Positions 33,574 through 34,225 of a stretch of DNA of 64,000 nucleotides are shown here, one piece after another. The translations under genes were made by a program, and so were the position numbers. Position 1 is the first letter of the stretch; each line of letters opens with the position of its first letter. Origin of the DNA: Candidatus Saccharimonadota bacterium (GTDB lineage: Bacteria; Patescibacteriota; Saccharimonadia; Saccharimonadales; Saccharimonadaceae); the NCBI GenBank assembly GCA_017510445.1, contig JAFWNF010000005.1, forward strand, positions 124,001 to 188,000. Direction: 5' to 3'. The notes below the pieces were generated by a model, which saw only the letters and a list, made by a program, of their open reading frames with translations, had not been told where the DNA came from and searched no databases.

Positions 33574-34062
33574 TTATTTTGCAATTATCTCATCGATATT
33601 CAACGAATAACCCATCACTTCTCCCACGCTCGTAATTTGCCCTTTTACTATTATTGTTTGGTCTTTGCTTAGCGTTTTTATTACGTCTTTTGTCTCCTGA
33701 TTTTTTACCGTGCAATGAACGCCGATTATATCCCATTTGTCTGTGGTGGATAAAAGGCTTATATATTTTATATCTGAATCTATCGTACCAAGTCTGCCCG
33801 TAATCTCTAAATATTTACCATTGTACGTTTCGTTGGCTAGAGCCGCATTATTGTCTAGAACATTCTCTAGCTCATCGATGTCGACCTTGATATATTCTCT
33901 TTTTGTTTCTCGAGATTGATTTTGAGCTTCTCTCCTTTCTTCTGAATTCTCTTTTTTGTTTCCAGCACTGCCTATACCTAATATAATAACGACCACTATT
34001 ACCCAAAACCACCATTTTTTGTAGACTGGTTTCTTTTCTTTTGATGATGTTTTTTCTGTCAT
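33574..34062 (-). CDS. Membrane-anchored OB-fold (tRNA_anti-like) protein
   Basis: 162 aa from the ATG at 34062, set by AAGGAGAC. A Lys/Ser-rich N-terminus, one transmembrane segment WWFWVIVVVIILGIG (about 16-31), a charged linker, then an OB-fold-like domain: NETYNGKYLEITGRLGTIDSDIKYISLL...IGVHCTVKN...IVKGQITSVGEVMGYSLNIDEI. This is the pattern of the tRNA_anti-like (PF12869) extracytoplasmic OB fold; ligand unknown. The leader is highly structured with a terminator, so expression may be RNA-controlled. Confidence 0.78.
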   Translation of the reverse strand: MTEKTSSKEKKPVYKKWWFWVIVVVIILGIGSAGNKKENSEERREAQNQSRETKREYIKVDIDELENVLDNNAALANETYNGKYLEITGRLGTIDSDIKYISLLSTTDKWDIIGVHCTVKNQETKDVIKTLSKDQTIIVKGQITSVGEVMGYSLNIDEIIAK

Positions 34063-34088
34063 ATTGTCTCCTTTTTTATTGGTGCCAT

Positions 34089-34225
34089 AAAAAACGACAA
34101 CCGTTCTAGGTTGTCTACACCAAACAATCAATGCCAAGATCGATGTTTTTCAAACGGTTGCCGTTTAATAAACTTGGCAAAAGTTTGAAAACTGATTGTT
34201 TAGTGTAGACAGTTTTATTATAACA
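34089..34225 (-). promoter_or_regulatory. Candidate riboswitch/attenuator leader with terminator
   Basis: TGT-TATAAT (34217-34225, minus strand) would start transcription near 34210. The RNA then has: a 19-position closing helix, 34193-34211 with 34112-34130 (one mismatch); an inner helix 34173-34179 with 34132-34138; a hairpin 34161-34166 with 34152-34157; and a competing pairing 34183-34191 with 34147-34155 that would form a pseudoknot. A perfect 7-bp terminator stem (34096-34115) with T6 (34089-34094) follows and shares 34112-34115 with the closing helix. The gene starts 26 nt later. Confidence 0.65.

Follow-up and report, generated by a model that had tools for sequence, protein, structure and literature searches.

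In the SAM-I, fluoride and cobalamin riboswitches, the 3' strand of the closing helix overlaps an intrinsic terminator, and an antiterminator is mutually exclusive with that terminator; cobalamin leaders add a loop-to-platform contact. Attenuators of the trp type and those of plasmids (pT181 and pIP501) decide termination through several mutually exclusive strand pairings. Phage P4 CI RNA and C4 antisense RNA are phage-borne, with pairings tied to termination or immunity, and phage moron genes carry a promoter and a terminator of their own.

We analyzed a leader RNA encoded on the minus strand of a 64,000-nucleotide stretch of DNA from a Candidatus Saccharimonadota bacterium (contig JAFWNF010000005.1, positions 124,001 to 188,000), which we call the window. 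Like the terminator-controlling riboswitches, it is a 5' leader whose closing helix overlaps a terminator and whose antiterminator excludes that terminator. It differs from them in that an internal loop would capture the 3' half of the terminator together with the U-tract, in that it has no Rfam match, and in that it serves mobile cargo and not one pathway. The mutually exclusive pairing of several strands is shared with the trp-type, pT181 and pIP501 attenuators, from which the leader is set apart by having neither a leader peptide nor an identified antisense RNA gene. As with P4 CI and C4 RNA, phage-borne pairings are linked to termination, but here the complementary strands lie in cis within one leader, and there is no Rfam match to C4. 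The unit also resembles phage morons and superinfection exclusion genes: it, too, consists of an accessory gene that has a promoter and a terminator of its own and is inserted within phage operons or next to an integrase, and it shares protein families with them. Unlike in morons, the terminator stands before the gene as part of a conserved RNA switch. The EAR (epsC) and put antitermination RNAs are likewise structured leaders that promote readthrough, whereas the present terminator would be disarmed by base pairing and the leader matches no Rfam model. For EAR, an action on the elongation complex has been reported (PMC2864571).

We read the leader, with a probability of about 75%, as a cis-acting attenuator of an undescribed RNA family that travels with accessory (moron-type) genes of prophages and serine-recombinase elements. 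The preliminary description of this locus, drawn from the window's sequence, had proposed an undescribed riboswitch or attenuator, and that proposal holds as an attenuator given the homologous leaders, the compensated base changes and the lack of an Rfam match. All of the elements that it listed are present (Table 1), but the decisive pairing, the B:E antiterminator, had been overlooked. The extended -10 promoter (34225-34217), the 7-bp helix (34179-34173/34138-34132), the perfect 7-bp terminator stem with T6 (34115-34089) and the ORF with a good Shine-Dalgarno sequence, whose ATG lies 26 nt past the U-run, are all found as described. The closing helix, P1, had been given as 19 positions with one mismatch; it comprises 18 bases (34210-34193/34113-34130), one more pair is possible at either end, and the supposed mismatch is a G.U pair in the RNA. 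The described 9-bp pairing of TTTTCAAAC (34191-34183) with GTTTGAAAA (34155-34147) is also present, but it is one part of a longer hairpin, and because this hairpin and the 7-bp helix both use TTGCC, the two are mutually exclusive and do not coexist. The 6-bp hairpin, AAACGGcaaCCGTTT, can be found in the window leader but shows no conservation among relatives, and we rejected it as a functional element for that reason.

Table 1. Elements of the window leader and the gene behind it.
Feature	Position	Strand	Remarks
Extended -10, TG-T-TATAAT, TGTTATAAT	34225-34217	-	read from the sequence
P1 5' strand, GUCUACACUAAACAAUCA, and putative RNA 5' end at ~34210	34193..34210	-	pairs with 34113-34130
P1 3' strand	34113..34130	-	GAC at 34113-34115 doubles as start of the terminator
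Strand A, UUUUCAAACUUUUGCC	34176..34191	-	partner is B (sequestering hairpin) or, through its GCC end, C (P2)
P2 5' strand, UGCCAAG	34173..34179	-	pairs with 34132-34138
Strand B, putative antiterminator, AAACGGCAACCGUU	34153..34166	-	pairs with 34092-34105
Strand C, P2 3' strand, CUUGGCA	34132..34138	-	changes together with strand A in relatives
Intrinsic terminator D:E, GACAACC-UAGAAC-GGUUGUC	34096..34115	-	followed by G and U6
Strand E in antiterminator use, AACGGUUGUCGUUU	34092..34105	-	terminator loop, 3' arm and first Us
Terminator U6 run	34089..34094	-	read from the sequence
Shine-Dalgarno, AAGGAG	34068..34073	-	read from the sequence
Controlled gene, 162 aa, start ATG 34062	33574..34062	-	N-terminal membrane segment and OB-fold (PF12869)

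A terminator scan returned 1 terminator-like site against 0.2 expected. The leader folds at -45.7 kcal/mol, compared with -23.1 kcal/mol for shuffled sequences (z -6.4), and does so better than 200 of 200 dinucleotide shuffles. About 100 nt upstream, at 34342-34314 on the minus strand, lies a second promoter, a perfect TTGACA-17-TATAAT with a TG extension; it extends over the end of the gene before it, and transcripts from it could run into the leader, which would then carry about 100 nt more at the 5' end. The genome has comparable promoter sequences at other places.

As had been surmised, the leader matches no riboswitch class in Rfam. A search with all 4227 Rfam models, riboswitches and T-box included, gave no minus-strand match in the window leader at E values up to 10, the same search of 20 homologous loci gave no match at any leader, and no description of the RNA was found in the openly accessible literature. 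Homologous leaders were found by a DNA search of 100 genomes, and a pattern search added leaders in Saccharibacteria, in two viral contigs and in one contig labeled Oscillospiraceae. The last of these (L026:789-5780) has the leader beside a mobilization-like gene, a cytosine methyltransferase and a probable restriction enzyme; the RNA may occur in Bacillota as well, or the contig may be misbinned. Covariance models restricted to P1 and part of the terminator identified members in 16 of 60 relatives (at E up to 1, where the weakest are chance matches), in 23 of 380 genomes across the phylum under strict filters, and in 73 of 247 genomes of the order, with one to three copies each. Broader terminator patterns applied to viral contigs gave mostly false matches and one more true member, L215. 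Searches of phage collections with leader DNA returned nothing beyond short matches to E. coli jumbo phages, which we put down to chance, and plasmid collections gave no match. Altogether 109 leaders were compiled, mostly from Saccharibacteria and also from other Patescibacteria, of which about 107 are credible; two weak matches (L147 and L146), judged false or degenerate, were excluded, and L020 is a false pattern match. The preliminary description had suggested a covariance search of Patescibacteria as a check, and in the roughly 107 homologous leaders obtained the paired bases do change with compensation. By sequence comparison, then, the leader is a real, uncatalogued and previously undescribed RNA family.

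In 97 homologs, P1 is 100% paired over the 8 pairs counted, in an alignment that was fitted to P1, and all 8 pairs show changes on both sides; 98.6% of the counted cells of the terminator are paired, and a terminator is present throughout the family. Of the two promoters, it is the -10 box beside P1 that the relatives conserve. In 104 of 107 homologs its distance to the first G is 6-7 nt; it has at least 5 of 6 matches in 99 and carries the TG extension in 60, and the predicted start of transcription is at or beside the first base of P1.

The pairing B:E was first recognized in relatives of the window leader. In the window, the inner strand AAACGGCAACCGTT (34153-34166) is complementary to 34092-34105, that is, to the 3' half of the terminator, its loop and the first Us, with 14 contiguous pairs and 17 in the full duplex. 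Since the covariance models contained no B:E pairs, this pairing provides independent support. For B:E in the first 15 sequences, 92.5% of cells are paired and 33 changes affect both sides, against 11.9 in shuffles (0 of 500 reached that number); when the partner is shifted by 1-3 columns, pairing falls to 34-68%. Among 83 non-redundant leaders, aligned by an anchor in the sequence alone, seven consecutive positions (0-6) are paired in 99-100%, and both-sided changes number 317 against 118 in shuffles. Position -1, the base that follows the terminator stem on its 3' side, is paired in 81 of the 83 (GC 50, CG 22, TA 7, AT 1), and positions 7-8, in the terminator loop, are paired in 76 and 80 of them with five or six pair types. 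The terminator hairpin itself has no need of this covariation, either at position -1 or in the loop. The duplex averages -24.5 kcal/mol, compared with -14.5 kcal/mol when partners are swapped between leaders, 44 leaders having also been compared with shuffles, and B:E is present in every credible leader. Among copies within one genome the B and E sequences differ while their complementarity is retained. B keeps GGC, a G.U wobble against the GUC of E, in 76 of 83 leaders, for which the simplest reason is that the GGC must also pair with the GCC of A; in L148 (GCU..AGC) the shared triplet is changed jointly in P1, the terminator and B. These comparisons indicate that B:E is the antiterminator, predicted to cross P1 as a pseudoknot. 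In 36 of 109 leaders, compared with about 14 in shuffles, the segment between P1 and B contains a U-rich run, which might join the A:U part of B:E in a triplex.

The leader thus has five strands with exclusive pairings, in which A takes B or C, B takes A or E, and E takes B or D. The preliminary description had noted that the closing helix and the terminator share bases, and GAC is indeed common to P1 and the terminator in nearly every lineage: the GAC of D pairs either with the GUC at the 5' end of the RNA, as part of P1, or with E. Its suspicion that most inner helices are alternative states was also right, A:B and A:C being exclusive. In the window, A:B (UUUUCAAAC..UUGCC with GGCAA..GUUUGAAAA), which includes the 9-bp pairing, is worth -16.1 kcal/mol and A:C -10.9 kcal/mol. 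Across 97 leaders, matched strands average -13.7 against -9.5 kcal/mol mismatched for A:B, and -16.2 against -9.1 kcal/mol for A:C. The terminator lies between promoter and gene, and the conserved antiterminator is exclusive with D:E, as expected of an attenuator. In the OFF state, A would sequester B in a hairpin and E would pair with D, so that RNA polymerase terminates. In the ON state, A would pair with C to form P2, P1 would hold GAC, and B would be set free to capture the 3' half of the terminator and the first Us as a pseudoknot, allowing the gene to be transcribed. Some members, in which A:B is weak or missing, count against this switch. A nearest-neighbor estimate puts ON below OFF by 15 kcal/mol on average before any pseudoknot penalty, which makes ON a possible default; with the penalty allowed for, the two energies are comparable. 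That attenuation is regulated, together with its direction, folding order, default state and signal, is what we infer from the pairing pattern.

The gene behind the window leader had been described as encoding an OB-fold membrane protein. The product does match Pfam tRNA_anti-like (PF12869, E 1.9e-14) as well as PHROG 8545, 'superinfection exclusion Sie-like' (E 3.7e-16), and phage homologs of its OB domain are 44-46% identical. The gene itself is incidental, however, as the same RNA precedes other genes elsewhere: the downstream gene differs almost everywhere while the RNA stays, and autoregulation through nucleic acid binding by the OB-fold was rejected on that ground. Among 99 downstream proteins scanned, DUF4352 (10), DUF5067 (8), DUF805 (3), DUF2726 (2) and DUF4190 (2) recur, and single cases include EcoRI-type and N6/N4 methyltransferases, TM2, SHOCT, exo/endonuclease and others. 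No shared pathway was found among these diverse families. PHROGs assigned 11 members to superinfection-exclusion families, the window protein with the best match. A membrane segment is predicted for 79 of 102 downstream genes compared with 10 of 51 size-matched neighbors (p 6e-12). When 198 genomes of the order were searched with the window protein, six other proteins matched, five of them directly behind leaders of the same family and mainly through the N-terminal membrane segment; leader and membrane anchor apparently make up a module whose outer domains can be exchanged. Phages with homologs of the OB domain have no leader in the stretches searched. In one of these (L217, Dulem virus 35), a protein joins a window-like OB domain to DUF4352 beside repressor and integrase genes, without a leader. 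In another locus (L139:2501-4078), the leader precedes an N6/N4 methyltransferase, and the second ORF after it possibly encodes the matching restriction enzyme. Direct anti-phage defense by the downstream product was rejected, PADLOC having given mainly methyltransferases and isolated weak matches. A type III toxin-antitoxin system (ToxIN) was likewise dismissed, the unit being single without tandem repeats and no ToxN family being listed among the 99 downstream proteins.

The neighbors of the leaders include eight serine recombinases, three IS1595 transposases, terminases, OLD/Gabija-like ATPases and restriction-modification genes, along with ordinary housekeeping genes. In the genomes searched for PF07508, a recombinase of this family lies within 6 kb of 15 of 24 leaders, where fewer than 1 would be expected by chance as estimated from the 47 recombinases in leader genomes. 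In the two viral contigs, the unit sits in reverse orientation within the structural operon, with the tape-measure gene on one side and the next head-tail genes on the other, the classical moron position. Two loci (L227 in G064 and L231 in G070) are compact units of a serine recombinase, the leader gene and an OLD/RecF-like ATPase, and they resemble small integrative defense elements of Saccharibacteria. Another (L233, G080:C14:2928-6381) combines a serine recombinase, a terminase-small-like gene and leader genes, and resembles a phage satellite. The family as a whole thus combines its own promoter, an accessory gene and a phage or integrase context. The window copy is not in a mobile element; its neighbors are housekeeping genes, although its protein family is phage-like, and PF07508 has no match in its genome. 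It may therefore be a settled relic. Several copies, including that of the window, have housekeeping surroundings without a recombinase, which counts against the mobile-cargo reading.

Inverted repeats could arise by chance around an ordinary terminator in AT-rich sequence, and one genome alone would leave that question open, but compensatory changes throughout the homologs refute this explanation, which the fold z-score also contradicts, and its probability is negligible. Ribosome-mediated attenuation through a leader peptide might draw on the short reading frame of some kind found in 97 of 107 leaders. Such a frame is preceded by an SD-like sequence in only 4 of 107, however, and no conserved peptide was seen, which nearly excludes the mechanism and makes it extremely unlikely. 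The terminated leader might instead act in trans, through B and E, on nascent leaders of its own type, as a self-specific RNA immunity or copy-number control. The location in phages and mobile elements would suit such a role, as would a B/E specificity that differs strongly between elements, even in one genome, while complementarity is kept; the identical pattern would be produced by helix drift with compensation, though, and neither a separate antisense RNA promoter nor a second target site was found. We consider trans control very unlikely.

A true metabolite or ion riboswitch, in which the three-way junction of P1, hairpin and P2 with its A-rich flanks is an aptamer and a ligand stabilizes the antiterminated state, is possible but doubtful. 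The junction architecture and the exclusive states are what such an RNA would have, the A-rich flanks and a frequent CGAAA after B are visible by eye, and a wide spread through one phylum with diverse genes recalls second-messenger riboswitches. On the other hand, base pairing explains most of the conservation, the junction nucleotides look weakly conserved, no Rfam riboswitch matches, and the downstream genes have no common pathway; a coherent downstream pathway is usual for riboswitches but not strictly required. The leader could also sense nothing, its competing folds passing a constant small fraction of transcripts so that costly cargo stays low, and the mRNA being shielded by its structured 5' end. 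A gene set that implies no shared signal fits this, as do states of comparable energy once a pseudoknot penalty is added, and moron genes elsewhere are generally known to have their own promoter and terminator. A weak terminator by itself would be enough for that purpose, however, and the deep conservation of B:E and the recurrence of A:B suggest switching, so that we think a fixed-ratio element rather improbable.

For the cis-acting attenuator that we favor, the best guess for a trigger is a general physiological signal, a ligand, ion or RNA-binding protein, acting at the P1/P2 junction or on B. A general signal is favored because the B/E specificity differs between copies in one genome, so that a single partner RNA is unlikely to drive them all. 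The switch probably serves to silence or hold down the membrane, modification or exclusion genes that mobile elements carry as cargo until they are required. More tentatively, and with less than even confidence, we suggest that the family could be a new class of signal-sensing RNAs, dispersed through the Patescibacteria by phages and serine-recombinase elements and switching on mobile cargo (exclusion, modification and surface genes) when a common cellular state arises, for instance infection, starvation or attachment to a host. The mechanisms that govern differentiation in Patescibacteria have been called 'completely unknown', and inducible systems are lacking (PMC11665869). Gene regulation in this phylum is almost unexplored, and the leader represents a large, strongly supported family of RNA regulators there. 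It can be used as a sequence marker to find the cargo of phages and integrative elements, and the combination of one conserved RNA switch with ever-changing cargo genes suggests how mobile elements control their accessory genes.
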